From: Morchella semilibera
Lineage: Eukaryota > Ascomycota > Pezizomycetes > Pezizales > Morchellaceae
Assembly (NCBI GenBank): GCA_009192285.1
Contig: CM018603.1
Coordinates: 1 to 64,000 of the forward strand
Direction of reading: 5' to 3'
DNA length: 64,000 bases
Shown: positions 1 through 41,764 of the stretch, piece by piece
How positions within the stretch are numbered: position 1 is the stretch's first letter
Layout: each line of letters opens with the position of its first letter
Notes under the pieces: model-generated
Databases searched by the model: none
The model's input: only the letters and a program-made list of their open reading frames with translations
Told to the model about the DNA's origin: nothing
Program-made: the position numbers and the translations under genes

Positions 1-199
1 CCTAACTAAACTAACCCTAACTAACCCTAACTAACCCTAACTAACCCTAACTAACCCTAACTAACCCTAACTAACCCTAACTAACCCTAACTAACCCTAA
101 CTAACCCTAACTAACCCCTAACTAACCCCTAACTAACCCCTAACTAACCCTAACTAACCCTAACTAACCCTAACTAACCCTAACTAACCCTAACTAACC
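1..199. repeat. Telomere repeat array
   Basis: About 19 head-to-tail copies of CTAACCCTAA, which reads TTAGGGTTAG on the G-rich strand running to the chromosome end. Three consecutive units near 110-145 carry one extra C (CTAACCCCTAA), and the outermost unit is degenerate. The unit can be seen as alternating CCCTAA and CTAA, so it is not the plain TTAGGG hexamer of most filamentous fungi. The array stops abruptly at about 199, where it joins coding sequence of the ppo gene with no subtelomeric spacer. Confidence 0.97.
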
Positions 200-2522
200 G
201 ATCTCCCCGAATCAAGCTTACGGCATCAGCCAAAACGGCATCAGTGACCGTGTGAGGTGCACCTATACCGGTACAGAGTTAGGAAAAGGCTTTAGACCCT
301 CAAGGCCGCAGGGGGTTCCTACAGATTCCTGACCCGGGGTCCTCCCTGTGTCTTGACTCTTCTAAGAAGAGCCCGGGATACATCTCCACATTATTAGGAT
401 CGGTATATAGTGTTTTAAGGGTAGCGGCAATGTCTGGGTCTGAGTTTATAGCTTCAAAGGTCTCATGTGGTTTCTGGCCGATGAATGCGCGGAATTCGTT
501 CAAGGACGCTACCATCCACTCCCGAGCTTGTAAGATTCCTAGAATCTCGACTGGTCTGAGAACATTAGGAACGTGGTTGGGTCTGAAGGCGCCTGCAGCT
601 TTCAATGTCAGTCCTGTGTGACGAACTCATCAGATTTACATACCGGCTGGATCATCGACAGCAGCTTTCAAGATCCTCACCAAGTCTTTATCATCAAATA
701 ATCCATCACTTCGTCTGACCAGGTCGTCAAATGTTCTCTTGGAAGGGTCCGGATCAAGGGCCGCCTCATACTCCTTTATTCCAGCTATGAACTCTTTGAT
801 ACTTAATTTGGAAACATCTTTTCCAGGAAACATCCGGCCAAAGAAGCCTTCAGTCCATTCGGCATCGCCCTTTGACAAGGCCGCGTGGAAGCGGTAGAGG
901 AGGTTGAACTCGCAGGAAACATAATTTCCAACTCCCCTGGGTACACTGGGTCCTCCTATGTAAGTAAGTTCGGCGCTTGGGTTGAGTGCCCAGTTTGATA
1001 AACTATTGTTAACGTTAAATATAGCACGAACGTAACTATTCATGTTAGTTGTGTTTAGACACATATTCGAATCTGTATAAATACGTACTCATTCACACAG
1101 ATGCTGATATATAACCCGTTGGTCACCCTACCATAAATGTTAGAACATTGATTAAAGAAGTACAGCTCTCCCTGATGTCTATGGGGAGGTTCTGGGTCTT
1201 GGGGAGATACTAACAATCTCGCTGTTTGGAATAGGTCATTGTCTCTCTTTCTCGTTGCTGCTTCAGGATCGATGGCGTTATGCTGAGGCGGCGTGAACCG
1301 CCCACCCTCATTGATTGCTGCCAAAGTCCTCGCTACGTAATTATGGAAACGGGAATACATGATAAGCATGACAGAAATCGCCGGCGACAGGCCCACGATC
1401 CTCTTATCAAAGTAAGCGTCAGGCTTGACCTCGCCATTGGTAAAGGTTCGGACAAGGGTTTGATCCTCCTGGCTATTCCCGTAAAGAGACGACAGGTCAA
1501 GGTAGGAAGATGTGGCATTAATGGCTCTGTCTCTCCTATCAGTGTGGAATATATCTATTTAGAATTTTTGATGGTATTAGTTGTAAATTCCCGAACTCGG
1601 GGAGGCTTCGATGGATATACTAACCATGGGTAATGATAGCTGCGTGACAAAAGAACAGGCTGGAAAACCCTGCTTCACTCGGTCCAAAGCCATCCCCGCG
1701 AGCCACCAATACCCGCAAAAATACCAAAGTTAGTATATATCGAGTCCGGCATCCCAAAATTAAGTTACCCTCGCAAATGAATCCCGCACATGATATATAC
1801 ATGCATATGCATGTACCCCTCTATATACAGCCCGGAAACCGATACAGCTGCAAGAAACAAGAGACTTCTCAGGAGGGTTAACGTACGGTCAAAAAGCAAG
1901 CCAGGGTCTGGTCTAGCAGCAGGCAAGGTCAACCCCGGGCGAACCGTTCTCGCATAAGCTGCTCCAGCCTTTCCCAAGTCCGGTGTCAAGATATTCTAGA
2001 AACAACCCAAGAGACGTTAGGCGCTTCAAAATCAACCCAGGTTTGATACGGGGACTAGACTTACATTGTACGAGCCGTCAGGTTGACGATACCGAAATTT
2101 CTCACCAACGTATGACAGTGGTGGGCGATCAAGAGTGTTCCAAAGCTTGGTGACAATTGCTTGTGTAGCCTTCGTCCTTGCCTCACCTTCGGGCAGCATA
2201 ATGATATCTTTCATTCTTACATCATCCTATTGATCCGTGTATGTCAGAAGGTTAATCACTGCTCTACACTATTCTCACAAAATATACAAGATAAATCACT
2301 CACAGCGGGAGTTTTTTGTCTCAGGTCATCGCCACGCATTGGCCACTCTCGTAGTATGGCCGTCACCTCCCCTATCAAGTCCCCCGGATCGGTCCGGGCA
2401 TCTTTATACAATTCTAGAATCTCCGCCACAAGTAGTTCAAATAGAACCTGCTTTGGAGACTTGTCAAACATTCTGTGAATATCATCCTGAAACTGGACTG
2501 GTAGCTGACGAATTTCTTCCAT
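200..2522 (-). pseudogene. ppo: Psi-producing oxygenase (fatty-acid dioxygenase), cut by the telomere
   Basis: N-terminal half of a fungal Ppo/linoleate diol synthase. The haem peroxidase domain of this family oxygenates oleic and linoleic acid at C8 or C10 to make oxylipins. I read nine exons on the minus strand: 2522-2304, 2226-2065, 1995-1887, about 1715-1625, 1554-1215, 1127-1089, 1035-644, 592-323 and 262-200, about 560 residues in all. Diagnostic stretches include LTPDLGKAGAAYARTVRPG, SSYLDLSSLYGNSQEDQ, IMYSRFHNYVARTL and EFNLLYRFH, which keeps the catalytic Tyr and haem-ligand His spaced Y-x-x-H. Splice sites are canonical except the acceptor before exon 4, where no AG sits at the expected place. 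The last exon ends in ADAVSLIRGDR, exactly at the telomere. Family members run to over 1000 residues, so the C-terminal P450-like isomerase domain is missing. Reading into the repeat adds LVRVS and a stop. A dioxygenase-only protein is possible but unproven. Confidence 0.9.
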
Positions 2523-4616: not shown

Positions 4617-4733
4617 CTGCCAACTCCTGAGGGGCCACCCCCGCCAACAGTTCTCAGAAGTACAGGCGGCGTATTTCTGAGGGAACCCCCCGGGTGCATG
4701 GTGCACTATGGGGCCTCCTTAAATGTTGGCAGC
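4617..4733. mobile_element. Possible degenerate MITE (family J)
   Basis: The ends are inverted copies of GCTGCCAAC followed by a looser match ending AGG(A)GGCC. About 117 bp, no coding potential. Target duplications are not clear. Confidence 0.4.
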
Positions 4734-5631: not shown

Positions 5632-5688
5632 AAAACGAATCGCAGATCGTAAAACGAATCGCAGATCGTAAAACGAATCGCAGATCGT
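5632..5688. repeat. Tandem repeat, 3 x 19 bp
   Basis: Three exact copies of AAAACGAATCGCAGATCGT in a row. No gene context. Confidence 0.9.
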
Positions 5689-5699
5689 AATGGAGTGGA

Positions 5700-7130
5700 A
5701 AAGGACGCGGGATATTATGTAACATCTAGTGTCACCTACGATATGGAAAGTTGCGCAGAATCTCTAGTTTAGGCCAAAAGTCAGACGATCAGGTAGCGAG
5801 CGGCGTCAAAAAAAGCTTTTGGTTGATCCTGCGTGCCTGGCGCTCCATTACTGTCTTTTACTGGATTCTGCCGTTTGACGATTCACAGGGATTCCTATGG
5901 AAAGAAACGAGATATCCGGTCTTTTTAATTTCTATTTGCCCAAAGTCCCCTGTTCGTCAACAAGAAGTATTCGTAAAAGACTATGTATAGCGAGTAGCGG
6001 CCCAGCTGCATGTCTTACTCCTACGGCTTTGCATACAGTACCAAAAAATGGGGTGTAATCCCTGCCGTAGGAATGCTATAGAAATGCTGGGTCTATGCGT
6101 ATTCTGGGGAATACCGCTTTACAGCCGCACTTTTGAGAATCAATTATTGACATGAGTGCTATAAAAATGCTGTATCACTGCCTCTGCCACACCTAGGCAT
6201 TTTCATAATAAGGGGAATAAGACTATACTCACGATAGATCATCGATCACCAATCAATTAGAATTATCAATATCATCATGGACTCATGATAGGATAACGGT
6301 TTCATCATGTAGTAATTATTGGATGGACAAAATTTATTTTTAAAAGTATTCCCTAACTCTCTCTAGCCCTTTGATAAGGGATCAAAGATGACTGAGATAT
6401 TAATGAATTAATTAGTTGTTGTTTTGATAATTGTAGTGCCTCATGAGAAGAAAATATTGCATGTAATTAACAGAATATTTCATACAAAATAGTACATGTA
6501 TGTCTTTTTGGCAGGGTACAGGCCGGAAATGGCCTGGAAATGGCCCGGAAACTACGGAAATACATAGCATTTCTAGAAATGCTGCAGAAATGCGGCATTC
6601 AATACTGCAGTACCTAAAATGCGGCAGAACTCAGTTTCTGCGGCACAGATTGCACCCCCTTTTTTGGTGGTACTGTATGTAGTGTGATGTCGGGCCGCGT
6701 TTCATCGTTCCATCGCGAATTGCGGGGTAAGACGCGGGAACATCCGGATCGGCGTTAATCGCATAACAGATACTAAGTCGCCATATATATTCCTGTTTCT
6801 GCTGCGCGTGAGCATCTTTGGCATCTCTGGGACTCGGGGAGAAGTCTCTGCTTGCACGGAACCAATGACATAATTCGCGCAAGTCGCATACAGGGCTCTG
6901 TAAGCAATTCTGTATCATAACGCCCGTCAATTATGAAGCTGAAATTATACGACGGCGGGTATGCGCAGTGTAAACTATGCAAGATACCAAGTGAATCACG
7001 CGCACCTTTTTCATGATGTTCGTCTCATCCTCAGAGGATGTGGTGTCTTACTGGCCGATATCGCTCCGTAGGGTCGATCGTCGGGGCGTGCTGTGGTGGG
7101 CCATGTGAACCAAGCATGCACAACATTGCA
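5700..7130. other. Gene-free stretch
   Basis: AT-rich DNA with small open frames that I do not recognise. No repeat ends found. Confidence 0.5.
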
Positions 7131-7132
7131 TA

Positions 7133-7265
7133 TCGCAAAAACTCGAAAAATTGGCTATCTCCGGCCAGGGATTACCTCCTTCACGATTGGTTGAAGGGCG
7201 TAGATCAGGTCTGCTTATAGCAATTTTGACCTCATATGCATAGCCAATTTTCCGAGTAATGGCGG
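7133..7265. mobile_element. MITE family A, copy 1 (133 bp)
   Basis: Terminal inverted repeats of about 25 bases (CCGCAA..ACTCGAAAAATTGGC type), flanked by TA at 7131-7132 and 7266-7267. It matches the copies at 11650 and 20710 in length and most bases, and is oriented opposite to them. No coding capacity; a Tc1/mariner-type non-autonomous element. Confidence 0.85.
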
Positions 7266-7267
7266 TA

Positions 7268-8566
7268 CACAGGAAAAAAACATGCCAAGACTATATTCGT
7301 ATGCAATAGCAGTTGCCTCCGGAAGCGCTGTAGAGCTGCGGGTGCTAGCAGATGGAGATCTCGGTGTTATGGGAAAATTGAAATCTACCGTATTAGAGCG
7401 CTTTGCCCGGCACCTCTAGATCTAGATATTTAGTTCTTAGCGGCAGCGTTTTGGGTGCCTGCGGAGGTCGGGGAATTAGAGTGTGCGTCTAGCCGAACCC
7501 CACAAAACATGCCTGCCCTAACTTGGATATAATCAATTTGAATTAGCCGATGCATATGATGCACGCGTTTTGCGCATTCTATCATAGCATCGACCTTGTG
7601 ATGTTCAATAGGGAGGTTTCGTAGCGTCCGACAACGAGGTTTTCGCACTGTAACTTGCATAAAGTCACGCATATGCGGCCATACCCCTCATTGACCCCCG
7701 GAGCGAGCCCTTGGGTCCGGCCACCAGAACTCGCCACCGGCGGCGCCAAGGCTGCGTGCAGATCCACACCTGCCGGGGTCGATCAGATCTACCCGGGACA
7801 ATGCCAGATAGGCGCAAAGAAGTGCCAAGAAAAGCCAAGGACATGTCTTCGTCTGTATTCAGGCTTGTGGCAATCTGTGGCTCGCCATACAGAAACGAGA
7901 GTCTAGCTAAGAACGGCTGTCGGCGGTGCAAGATCTATTCAAATGTTAGTGCGTTGTGGTGGCCGGCCATCAATTCGGCAACTTTGACACTCCAGCTTAA
8001 GGTGTCCCCAACCATATTTTTTTTAACTCATTTGAACTTTAGCTTACGGGTACAAACTCATTGCATAAAGGATAACCTATGACATAAAAAAACCCTTGTG
8101 CCTCCGCAAAACCAGAAAACACTATCCCCTTAAAGAAAAGCGGACAAAGTAGAAGAACATAAGAAACAACACAATGTTTTGCCCTGATAAACTACTGAGT
8201 GTGTGGGGTCCTTTACTGGATGTGAGTTGAGCTGGGTGCCGAATTTACTGTTTTCCGCAGTGGTGCCCCCAAACGATATGCACCAGCAGTTGTTCCCAGG
8301 CGGGTGGTATGTAATAGTAGTCAAGCCGATGCACCACTAGCAAAAAGCAGTGATTCCCATGCTCCTGCCGCTAGTAGTCACTCCGAGGCGCCAGCATGTC
8401 ATAGCAGCCAGGCGCAGGTGGTGACGGTGTTCCTCGCTTAATTCTGGTGGTGTGCGGCCGTGGTAGTGGTACTTTGCAACCATGGTGTCATCCTCGCTTA
8501 ATCTGAGATGCGGACCTGCAGCAGGGTTTGAATACCGGGAGGAGGCAACAATATTGAGAAGCTGTA
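7268..8566. other. Gene-free stretch
   Basis: Contains one isolated AGGTGTCCCCAACC end at about 8000 that matches the terminal repeat of the element starting at 8567, probably a second, decayed copy. Otherwise nothing recognisable. Confidence 0.4.
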
Positions 8567-36540: not shown

Positions 36541-37497
36541 TTGTTGCCCTCAGTTTTTCGTTCTGAGAAGTTTCCAGATCCGCCTAAGTTCAATGGGACT
36601 CGCAAGGAGCTACCAGGGTTCCTTAACCTCCTTCGTACCAAACTCAGGGTTAACTACGACAGGTTCCTGAATGAAGAGGCCAAGGTGTTCTATGCCGTCT
36701 CTCGGTTGGAAGGGAAGGCTTTAGATCAAGTCATCCCAATGGCCACTGGAGATGCCGCTCCATTTGTTTCTGTCGCTACCTTTGTTGCATTTTTGGAAGC
36801 ATCTTTTGGAGACCCAGATCCCCGAGGCACAGCCAGAAGGGAGCTCCAAGGCCTCCGCCAAGGCAAAGGAGACTTCGCGACCTATCTTACTCAATTCCTA
36901 CGCATTATGGGCCAACTTGATTATAATGAGGAAGCCAAGAAGGACGCACTGGAGACTGGACTGTCTGACGACCTTAAGGATGCTATGATCTATCAGGATA
37001 CTGCTGAGGAAGGCTTTGATGCCTATGTCAGGAGACTTATGACTATGGACAATAGGATTAGGGCCAGGAAGGATGTCCACAAAACCAACAGGAACCCGAT
37101 GGGACAATTCGCCTCCCAACCTGCTCCCCCACATCCGTCGCATACGCCAGGAGGCCTGGCCCCTATGGACCTTTCCGCCCTTCAGGCTCGCCCCATCGTA
37201 CGCCCTCCACCAGAAGAAAGGTATGCATTTGCCAATGGCCGCCGACACACCACTGCTGCTGAAAAGAAATGGAGGATGGAGAACGGCCGCTGTGCCTACT
37301 GTATCGCTCCCGACCACGTCTTCGCCAACTGCCCCCAAGGCAATCGCCCACGCGCTCCTCCTCCAGCTATGAGAGGTGCCGCTCTATCTGCTCCCCCTGC
37401 CGCCCCTATTGAAGCCCCCGCTCCTATTTCTCCTTCTTCTTCTTCTTCCTTGTCTACGGATATTGTGTTGTCCTCTGGTAATTCGGGTTTTCAGTAG
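36541..37497 (+). mobile_element. Chromovirus gag region
   Basis: Retrotransposon Gag-type capsid sequence with a CCHC zinc knuckle, CAYCIAPDHVFANC, near 37291-37332, followed by a Pro/Ser-rich tail. Part of the element at 36228-42268. Confidence 0.85.
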
Positions 37498-37586
37498 TCC
37501 CTGGCCAGTATCATGGCCCTTGCCAGGGACCTTTAAAGGAATTTTCTTTATCTGCATTTTCTATTTCTGGGTTTTCGGTTTCAGTT

Positions 37587-40500
37587 GTGGCAGAGGAGGA
37601 ATTAAATGGAGAACACTTAGTTGTAGCTTGTAACATTGCTCACAATAAGATCCCTATTTCCACCTATGCTATGATTGATACTGGGGCCTCGGGATTCGCA
37701 TTCATTGATGAAACCTTTGCGCGCCATCATCAACTTCCTCTTCTCCCCCTCAAAACTCCTCGGACTCTTGAAGTAATCGATGGGAGACCTATTGCATCCG
37801 GACAGATTACCTCGATATGCCGTGTACCTCTACTTATCGGCTCCCATCAAGAACAAATTCCACTCTTCGTTACTAAGCTGGGACAGTACCCCCTAGTTCT
37901 TAGTATTCCTTGGCTACAACATCACGATGCCACCCTTAAATTTAAGAATAATACGGTGGCCTTTGACTCGGAGTTCTGCAAAAAGAACTGCAACTCTACG
38001 ACTACCCTCGATGTTATCCTCGGCATTAAACCCCCAACCTACATGATAGGCCCTGTCCCATTTAGTCGCCTCACCCGTCGTAAACAATTACAGATCTGCA
38101 GTATAACATTGTACAAGATTGAGGAGGCCCTCCAGGATGTTCCAAAAGATGGATGGAAACAAAAGATACCCGAACGCTATCATAATCGATTGAAGACGTT
38201 CGATGAAGCCTTCGCCCAGGACCTACCGCCTCGCCGCCCATATGATCATAAGATACCTTTGAAGGAAGGCAAGGAGCCCCCATTTGGTCCTCTTTATGGC
38301 ATGTCCAGGAACGAGTTGCTCGCACTAAGGGACTATATTCGGGAAAATCTCTCTAAGGGCTTTATCCGCGCCAGTTCGTCCCCGGCTGGGGCTCCGGTAT
38401 TATTTGTTAAGAAAGCTGACGGGTCCCTTCGTCTCTGTGTGGACTACCGAGGATTAAACGAGTTGACGGTCAAGAACTGATACCCATTACCCTTAATTCG
38501 AGAAACTTTGAACCGTCTCTCTAAAGCCAAGTGGTATACTAAGTTGGACTTAAGACAGGGATATAATCAAATCCACATGGCTGAAGGGGAGGAGTGGAAG
38601 ACAGCATTTAGGACCCGCTACGGTCATTTTGAATACACCGTAATGCCATTTGGTCTTACCAATGCCCCCGCTCCCTTTCAACACTTTATCAATGATTGTC
38701 TTCGAGAACATTTGGATCAATTTTGCACTGATATTTGGATGACATTCTTATATATAGCAACTCCCTCGAAGAACACGAACAACATGTCGAAATAATATTG
38801 GGAATCCTACAGGAGAACGGAATTCTGTTGAAACCAGAGAAGTGCGAATTTCATACTCAAAGCACCACCTATCTCGGGTTGATTATCGAACCCAATGGCA
38901 TTCGCATGGATCCTCATAAGGTATCGGCGGTACAAGAATGGACTACCCCTAAGTCAGTTAAGGACGTACAAGCCTTTTTGGGCTTTGCCAATTTTTACCG
39001 TCGCTTTATTTTTAGATTCTCGAAACTTGCATCCCCCTTGACTAAACTTACGAAGAAAAATGTTTCTTTTTTGTGGACCTCGGAAGTAGAGGTAGCCTTT
39101 CAATCCTTGAAAGAGGCCTTTACCACTGCCCCCATTTTGATTCACTTCGACCCCGAAAAGCCAATTACGGTGGAAACAGATGCGTCGGACTATGTTGCCG
39201 GTGGTATACTTTCCCAATGTGATGAACAAGGGAAATTACACCCTGTGGCATTTTTCTCTAAAAAACATACGCCTGCAGAATGCAACTATGAGATTTACGA
39301 TAAAGAGCTACTGGCGATAATTAGATGTTTCGAAGAATGGAGGCCGGAGTTGGAAGGAGCTAAACACCCTATTGAGGTAATTTCCGATCATAAGAACCTC
39401 GAATACTTTATGTCCACCAAGCAGCTTAACAGGAGACAAGTACGATGGGCCAAATATTTGTCGCGTTTTAATTTTGTTATTAAATATAGACCGGGGAGGC
39501 AGAGTCGGAAGCCGGATGCGTTGACTAGGAGATCAGGAGATCTCCCTGAGGAAGGGGAAGAAAGATTGTTGCATCAGAGTCAGATAGTTTTGAAGAAGGA
39601 AAATTTGGATCCTAAGCTAAGTTTGTTAGCGGGTTCTTTAGCAAATGGACCTGCTGAAAAGAACGCCCCCCTACAGAAATTACTCGATGAAGGATACTTA
39701 GCTGACCCATTCCTACAAAAGATCTTGGACCTACAGCAGACAGATATAAAACACTGCAAGGAGATCTCCCTAGCGGAATGTACTGAATTAGACGGCCGCC
39801 TGCTCTATCGCGAAAGTATTTATATTCCCGATTATGCACCACTGAAGCTGGAGATCCTGAAACAATACCATGACGCCCCCTCGGCAGGACATCCTGGCAG
39901 AGAAAAAACCTTTGAATTGGTTAGCAGGGATTATTATTGGCCAAATATGCATGAATATATCGGTCAATATATTCGGAATTGCCACATCTGCCAGCGAAGT
40001 AAATCAACGACACATGGAAAGTTAGGAGTACTTCGACCGCTACCTATACCAGAACAACCCTGGAGAGAGATATCGATGGATTTCGTTACAGGCCTACCAG
40101 AAAGTGAAGGATACGATGCTATACTGGTGGTTGTGGACCGGCTTACGAAGATGCGTCACCTCTTACCCTGCAATACTACGGTCAATGCAGAAGATTTAGC
40201 CGAGCTATATTTGCAACACATGTGGAAGCTGCATGGTCTACCTACATCTATCACGTCCGACAGGGGAACCCAATTTACCGCGAAGTTCTGGAAATCCCTT
40301 TGCAAGCAATTGAAAGTTGAAGCCAGGATGTCAAAAGCCTTTCACCCGGAGACAGATGGTCAAATAGAGAGACTGAATGCAGTGATAGAGCAATACCTCC
40401 GAGGGTATGTGTCATATCAACAGGACGACTGGGCTAAGTGGCTGCCGATGGCGGAATTTGCAGCAAATAATCAAGTGTCAGCCTCCACCAAAGCCACTCC

Positions 40501-41627
40501 GTTCTTTGCCAATTATGGCTACGACCCTCGATTTACGATGGACCTACGGAAATTGGAGAAAACTCCACCGAGTCTCGACGCCCACGACTTTGTGTCACGG
40601 CACGTCTGGGATAGTAGGAAGGGATTGAGCAGGGATGTTGGGTTTCTTCGGGATGAGTTATCGGGTTTTAGTATGAGGATCGGTTAGTGGTGCGGGGAGT
40701 CTTCTTTAGGTTTCTATGGGTTTCCGTAGTACGGATTAGTAATCGGTGAAATTGGAAGGTTATATATACGGCTAGGATTTCCTTTGTCTTTCCTTTTCTT
40801 CTTTCCTTACGCAACCTCCTGTTATCAACCTTTTCCTTTAGGTTTCGGTTCTCGTTCTCGTCTGTAGTTCTTTAGTCTGTTCGATAATAAATTATACTTG
40901 GTTCTTTACTTCTCCGCGCCCTGTCTTCGGTTGTGCCCCTTGGTACCCCGCTCCTGTACCCGTCTGCCTCGGTTAACCCTTGGCCTCCTGTCGCCTCTCA
41001 CCCTTGCCTATGACCGTGATCCGAGCGATCTACTGGTGCCTCCGCGTATACGTTGAACTCAGAGACTCCCTGTGGACCCTCTGCCCGACCCTGCTCCTAC
41101 TCTAGATCTTTCCCATCCCAGTACCCGACCCCGCCCCGTAACACTTTGCAGGCAAGATGTAGGAATTGCATGACTACCTACAGACTCAACTTCGGACCGC
41201 TCAAGACCAACGAGAAAAGTCAGTTAATTCGAAGCGTACTCCCGCCCCACGTTACGAAGTTGGCGATATGGTGTTTGTTTCAGCAAAGAATATTCGAACT
41301 TCGCGGAATTCCAGGAAGCTTGATTGGAAAAAACTGGGACCTTTTCCCGTTCAAGAGGTCATTTCGCCCTATGCTTATCGATTGAGTTTACCTAATTCGA
41401 TGAAGATGCATCCCGTCTTTCATGTCTCCCTGTTGGATCTTGCCGCCGTCGACCCTGTACCGGGACAAATACAATCACCCCCCCCGCCTATTATTGTTGA
41501 TCAGGAGGAAGAATATGAGGTCGAAGAAGTTCTGGATTCGAGGCATCATGGAAAGCAGGGACTTCAGGACTATGTGAAGTGGACGGAGTATGCTAACCCT
41601 ATGTGGGAACCTGCCGATTATCATCAA
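37587..41627 (+). mobile_element. Chromovirus pol region
   Basis: Contains, in order, an aspartic protease (DTGASG), reverse transcriptase, RNase H, an integrase with an HHCC finger (CHICQRSK) and catalytic core, and a chromodomain near the end (YVKWTEYANPMWEPADY). Broken in this copy and interrupted by the H solo LTR at 40593-41143. Confidence 0.88.
40593..41143 (+). mobile_element. Solo LTR, family H, inside the chromovirus
   Basis: Starts TGTCACGG, ends CCCCGTAACA, 551 bp, with 5-bp target duplications CTTTG at 40588-40592 and 41144-41148. Its end resembles the E LTR end (CCCGACCCCGCCCCGT), so E and H are probably related families. Confidence 0.92.
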
Positions 41628-41764
41628 CATCAGCAAGACTTGATTTGTCTCCTGATGTCTCCTGAGCCTCAGGAGACTTAAAAAATATCCAGGAGTCTCA
41701 GGAGACTCTCAGGAGACCCGGGAGACTACTGGGAGACTCCAGTCATAAGTTGAGTTTGCTGATG
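41628..41764. mobile_element. MITE family D (137 bp), copy in the chromovirus
   Basis: Starts CATCAGCAAG, ends TTGCTGATG, flanked by AA at 41626-41627 and 41765-41766. By eye about four differences from the copy at 32223 over 137 bases. It postdates the chromovirus insertion. Confidence 0.93.

Follow-up and report, generated by a model that had tools for sequence, protein, structure and literature searches.

In the morel genome analysed here, a chromosome very probably broke inside exon 9 of a ppo-type oxygenase gene, lost the sequence distal to the break and was healed by telomerase, leaving a 5′ relic that is probably nonfunctional. The genome is represented by a 56,756,124-base assembly of 23 contigs, and the stretch of DNA under study (hereafter, the window) comprises the first 64,000 bases of contig C1 (C1 1-64000; C1 has 7,341,407 bases). 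A telomere array at its very start is joined directly to the coding sequence of the gene, with no stop codon or frameshift ahead of the junction. Chromosome healing, which had been proposed in a preliminary description of this DNA, is well supported at the window end because the repeat register is shared by the 30 ends surveyed, native-base seeds are present at other ends, the 3′ half of the gene is lost, and the locus is single-copy.

Regarding the array, Tandem Repeats Finder reported a repeat at window positions 9-199 (period 10, 18.8 copies, 98% matches), and with the first bases included the array spans positions 1-199. All 46 contig ends were read; as the same repeat occurs at 27 of them (13 on the left, 14 on the right), it is the telomere of the organism. 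The published telomere unit is TTAGGGTTAG or CTAACCCTAA for M. crassipes M10M26 in the accessible text of PMC7014384, and AACCCTAACT, the same unit, for M. sextelata in that of PMC13208314. In minus-strand orientation, TDAVLADAVSLIRGDR (...SLIRGDR) reads in frame through the junction into LVRVS and a stop codon, as stated earlier, and the GG at 199-198 is compatible with both the ppo codon and the telomere repeat. The repeat finder, the reading frame and the splice model agree with the earlier statement that the array begins directly in exon 9; the bounds of this exon were given as 262-200, whereas the splice model places them at 262-198. The absence of a subtelomeric repeat between gene and array also holds at this end, but arrays adjoin other sequence directly at other ends too, and it seems usual in this genome for an array to be seeded directly onto internal sequence. 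Transcripts reading out of the cut gene would end in UUAGUUAGGG.

The cut gene lies on the minus strand at 2522-198 and was modelled with nine exons (Table 1), encoding 561 residues up to the junction without a stop or frameshift, or 566 residues including LVRVS. Pfam assigned the window protein to An_peroxidase (PF03098, E 5.7e-31); hmmscan of the raw frame of positions 1-600 found no family, and exon models were required. The best solved relatives are COX-2 chains, to which the regions of the distal His, the Tyr and the proximal His could be aligned, with YRFH opposite YHWH of COX-2, and its haem peroxidase domain has the catalytic Tyr and the proximal His. We take the gene to be a ppo (linoleate diol synthase, DOX-CYP), a label that was given by judgement and was returned by no library. 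In intron 3, in-frame alternative acceptors for the normal donor are available at 1672, 1669 or 1639.

Table 1. Features of the window and of the telomere arrays compared with it (unprefixed coordinates are window positions).
Feature	Location	Strand	Remarks
Terminal telomere array	1..199	-	unit TTAGTTAGGG on minus strand
Junction	198..200	-	exon codon CGG into GGTTAGTTAGGG
ppo exon 1	2304..2522	-	likely start codon; splice model
ppo exon 2	2065..2226	-	splice model
ppo exon 3	1887..1995	-	PDP triad at start of catalytic domain; splice model
Intron 3	1712..1886	-	donor GTACGT, 3′ end GCGGG (GG, not AG); placed by homology
ppo exon 4	1625..1711	-	ends in ITH of distal His region; start set by homology
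ppo exon 5	1215..1554	-	splice model
ppo exon 6	1089..1127	-	splice model
ppo exon 7	644..1035	-	YRFH (catalytic Tyr, proximal His by alignment); splice model and alignment
ppo exon 8	323..592	-	splice model
ppo exon 9	198..262	-	cut by array; splice model and paralogue alignment
Seed T	C1R
Seed T	C4L		homologue 80% identical
Seed TTA	C6L
Seed TAGT	C9L
Seed GT	C6R		homologues are the end's own tandem units
Seed A	C7R
Seed G	C11R
Seed GT or GTT	C12R
Seed TA	C2 internal
Seed G	C11 internal
Seed GT	C1 ~1.46 Mb		eleventh, added later; three copies elsewhere, each 97.7% over 132 bp
N-bounded arrays inside scaffolds	C1 ~1,462,305; C2 ~4,063,746; C11 ~975,492		long N runs
N-bounded arrays inside scaffolds	C1 ~4,005,412; C1 ~5,770,149		single N
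LINE-like tail ACAGCTTGATC then telomere units / RVT_1	L050 ~240-290; L059 1-90; L072 right end; L061 131-607
Interstitial telomere tract	C1:1519381 (L025 ~1500-1535)		~30-50 bp
Interstitial telomere tract	C1:6999650 (L045 ~4632-4680)		~30-50 bp
Interstitial telomere tract	C3:32122 (L094 ~216-275)		~30-50 bp

A search of the genome for a full-length ppo copy revealed two paralogues with both domains, at about 114-118 kb on C15 and at about 21-26 kb on C17, to which the window protein is 45% and 54% identical, respectively. In both, a P450 part follows that carries the Cys motif GPHxCLGK, and the C17 part was recognised as PF00067 at 2.4e-9. This C-terminal P450 with its Cys ligand, the isomerase half, has been removed from the window gene, as had been claimed, and is present in the C17 and C15 paralogues. 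As no blastn match was obtained between the window gene and either paralogue at the DNA level, the comparison was made at the protein level instead. The ppo DNA at 200-2560 (2,361 bp) matched nothing in the genome except itself and is therefore single-copy. A search of the genome with the P450 half of the C17 paralogue returned seven matches, of which four lie on C17, two on C15 and one on C4 (E 0.8, a chance-level match), and six first-look candidates were scored; among these first-look candidates in this assembly, no separate copy of the missing 3′ half was found outside the two paralogues, and the sequence distal to the break is to that extent lost. The C17 paralogue (C17:21.4-25.7 kb), the nearest relative of the window gene, is also subtelomeric, the left end of C17 bearing an array and the gene being transcribed towards that telomere. 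A possible origin of the C17 flank and the window as duplicated arms was dropped, as the matches listed (60 protein and 30 DNA) had no gene order in common; the non-ppo ones among them were mainly many-to-many and of repeat type.

The position of the break bears on the fate of the product. The preliminary description placed exon 9 just before the linker to the P450 domain and envisaged a dioxygenase alone, making hydroperoxides. In the accessible part of PMC13049297, the 8R-DOX of 5,8-LDS is described as 478 residues long, from the Asp of the PDP triad to a conserved Pro; expression is reported to have needed a helix (P628-L638) that comes after the last COX-like one. In the C17 paralogue, a count from the PDP Asp puts the Arg of the break at residue 405, leaving 73 to the border described in that part of the paper. 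Thus, about 73 dioxygenase residues follow the break in the paralogues, and the window gene is short of a complete domain by about 73 of 478 residues; by this count from the PDP triad, the cut product would lack the end of the domain, including the helix required for expression, in addition to the P450 half. A working dioxygenase yielding hydroperoxides alone appears unlikely, and we assign a low probability to the earlier view that the cut gene still produces one without its P450 half. Although the 561 modelled codons are free of stops and frameshifts, the positions of the Tyr, the proximal His and the distal His are retained, and splicing to an in-frame site at 1669 or 1672 would shorten the product by only 13-14 residues, the product would have to function without about 73 dioxygenase residues, among them the place of a helix required in a related enzyme (PMC13049297, accessible part), the acceptor of intron 3 is GG, and telomere repeats alone follow the cut gene for 3′ end formation. 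Since the dioxygenase domain is cut about 73 residues before its end and the intron 3 acceptor is noncanonical, we infer that the window ppo is probably a dead relic. The loss of the splice site might even have killed the gene before the chromosome broke, so that the break itself would have been neutral. This order of events is compatible with healing, and the GG acceptor, together with two paralogues that retain both domains elsewhere, points to it; as one genome cannot give the order of events and the coding frame shows no other decay, we rate its chances as slightly below even.

The behaviour of the other chromosome ends provides a control. A set of 30 arrays was assembled from the 27 array-bearing contig ends, minus C10L and C13R (left out as duplicates of C9L and C12R), plus five N-bounded internal arrays; at least five such internal arrays (three in C1, and those in C2 and C11) are present among 100 of the 144 array places. 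The start phase was defined as that of the first repeat 7-mer counted from inside. By this rule, all 30 arrays start in phases 9, 10, 1, 2, 3 and 4 of the 10-nt unit (2, 10, 1, 11, 5 and 1 ends, respectively) and none in phases 5-8, and none of 20,000 uniform random draws was as concentrated. With an 8-mer rule, 29 of 30 fell in the best six-phase block and one at phase 5, a concentration again reached by 0 of 20,000 draws. A 10-mer rule, applied to 29 ends, placed 26 in the block and left C7L, C14L and C3R outside because damaged innermost units were skipped, and it was replaced by the 7-mers and 8-mers. When five LINE-associated ends are omitted, a simple bound of 3e-5 is obtained. As a genome-wide feature, the repeat register is not random, as would be expected if it were set by telomerase. 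The window end starts at phase 9, inside the six-phase block, but its register by itself is weak evidence, as a random join fits with probability 0.6.

Unbroken homologues were sought for each end among 69 sequences, the window included and overlapping array copies omitted, and were obtained for 14 of the 30 ends (none for the other 16). Ten of these alignments were clean, C5L and C8L were unclear, and C3R and the array at C1 ~5.77 Mb were excluded, with 70-72% identity and alignments stopping short of the junction. With the array at C1 ~1.46 Mb counted, 11 of 11 clean ends have 1-4 native bases in common with the repeat (mean 1.8, versus 0.33 by chance). Assuming one in four per base, the probability of at least one match at every end is 1e-6 for the first ten and 2.4e-7 for all eleven. 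The homologues of C5L, 69-73% identical, share 2 or 4 bases with the repeat and C8L has no seed; including both gives 11/12 (2e-6), or 12/13 once C1 ~1.46 Mb is added. The cleanest case is C11R: a copy on C20, identical at 265 of 287 bases (92%), stops matching precisely at the junction, the seed being a single G. Several ends thus show telomeres that were added to broken internal DNA on seeds of 1-4 nt. For the ppo locus itself, no unbroken copy was found in the genome search or among the 69 sequences, and the GG would constitute the minimal seed. As the next codon in both the C15 and C17 paralogues encodes Phe and begins with TT, a GGTT seed is possible.

Chromosome healing at the window end probably proceeded as follows. 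The chromosome would have suffered a double-strand break inside ppo exon 9, or an older end would have eroded to that point, with the loss of all sequence distal to it. Telomerase would then have primed on the 3′ end ...GATCGG and built a new telomere there, the broken 3′ end annealing to the 3′ portion of a template such as CCCUAACUAAC, as suggested by the start register and by the seeds of 1-4 nt elsewhere. The remnant would be a 5′ relic lacking both the P450 half and the last ~73 dioxygenase residues. Both telomerase as the agent and the cause of the break are what we infer in this scheme.

Two other origins of the junction were weighed against healing by telomerase. The scaffold C1 is mis-joined elsewhere, with three internal arrays stopping at N, so joins in this assembly can err, and a telomere-bearing read or contig end might have been attached to an unrelated ppo contig. 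Such wrong joins, however, are marked by N, whereas the ppo junction is free of N and its array starts at base 1 of the scaffold; moreover, the length of 199 bp lies inside the range of 70-257 bp found across 29 ends (the 10-mer survey set), and the register agrees with that of other ends, as in the above-mentioned fraction of random joins. An assembly artefact is accordingly regarded as very unlikely. Alternatively, the repeats might have been brought in by a LINE-like element targeted to telomeres, or through fusion with or capture of another chromosome end. LINE-like elements do occur in this genome: at C6L, C15L and C7R their tails lead into telomere units, and a reverse transcriptase fragment (RVT_1, Pfam) abuts the telomere at C17L. 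However, whereas a MoTeR-like insertion would leave element sequence between chromosome and terminal repeats, none lies between ppo and the array, and the first 800 bp past the array had no match in the other end sequences compared (E 1e-8, at least 60 bp); such an origin seems extremely improbable.

At ten other ends, open reading frames were read, and six were run against Pfam; four had no family, and the remaining domains were the C17L fragment mentioned above and a Tc5-type transposase domain near the internal array at C1 ~4.0 Mb. Of the 30 ends, four were tested for copy number; among these, C5R is nearly single copy, with one weak partial match, and C11R has one partial copy elsewhere. 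Within what was tested, the window end is the sole one with a recognised host enzyme gene truncated by its array. As C1 and C2 have arrays at both ends and contain internal arrays stopping at N, they look like joined chromosomes, and the ppo end would be part of a ~1.46 Mb piece, the opposite end of which (C1 about 1,462,305) is telomeric and lies within a dispersed repeat. In the accessible text of PMC7014384, the published LG1-LG8 bear arrays at both ends. That text also describes M10M26 as monospore, in contrast to the presence of paired scaffolds: C9/C10, C12/C13 and C21/C22 have identical starts (over the first 6,000, 6,000 and 800 bp compared) and parallel repeat coordinates. Interstitial telomere tracts, inspected by eye, could be telomerase insertions in break repair; two start in the common register of the chromosome ends and the C3 tract at another phase. 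Elsewhere in the window, positions 7130-7271 are a dispersed ~140 bp repeat with at least 30 matches at 92-97% identity, two of them shorter, among 40 scored of 472 candidates, positions 5632-5690 hold three perfect copies of the 19-bp unit AAAACGAATCGCAGATCGT, and the open reading frames at 36541-41681 resemble by eye gag, protease/reverse transcriptase and integrase of a Gypsy-type retrotransposon.

Telomere healing inside coding sequence has already been described, and the morel ppo end is a further case, as judged from the accessible parts of the reports cited here. In Plasmodium falciparum 3D7, 5 of 28 reference ends have healing hallmarks, 4 of them inside var genes (PMC5550746, accessible part), and telomere repeats are likewise fused directly into the coding regions of truncated genes; those genes are mostly members of subtelomeric families and the events were followed by long reads, whereas in the morel a fatty-acid oxygenase gene is affected and the assembly alone was used. 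The accessible text of PMC7367193 reports that 19 of 24 de novo telomeres of Magnaporthe oryzae formed on 1-4 nt seeds, and terminal loss, telomere addition on short seeds and element-rich ends are common to both fungi; in M. oryzae, truncation affected rDNA and MoTeR sequences in the course of laboratory generations, in contrast to a metabolic gene and a 10-nt unit here. As in the loss of pfhrp2 (PMC11458181, accessible part), a gene has been lost through a break and telomere healing, but pfhrp2 was deleted as a whole in field samples, whereas the morel keeps part of the cut gene and two paralogues besides. In its accessible part, the main text of the genome paper on M. sextelata (PMC13208314) contains no word beginning with “healing” or “subtelomer”.

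It is conceivable, and we put it forward as a tentative proposal short of an even chance, that every chromosome end in this genome is a healed break, the ends eroding and being re-seeded by telomerase at one template register, with ppo as the host gene at present on the moving front. If so, the array boundaries would be scars marking the last break of each chromosome. Scaffolds that have been regarded as possible complete chromosomes contain telomere arrays beside gaps. The window end provides a clean case of healing inside a metabolic gene of an edible mushroom, with ends of the same genome as controls. As the 10-nt unit allows the start register to be read easily, array boundaries in morels can give the start sites of telomerase and can be used for comparing break positions across strains.
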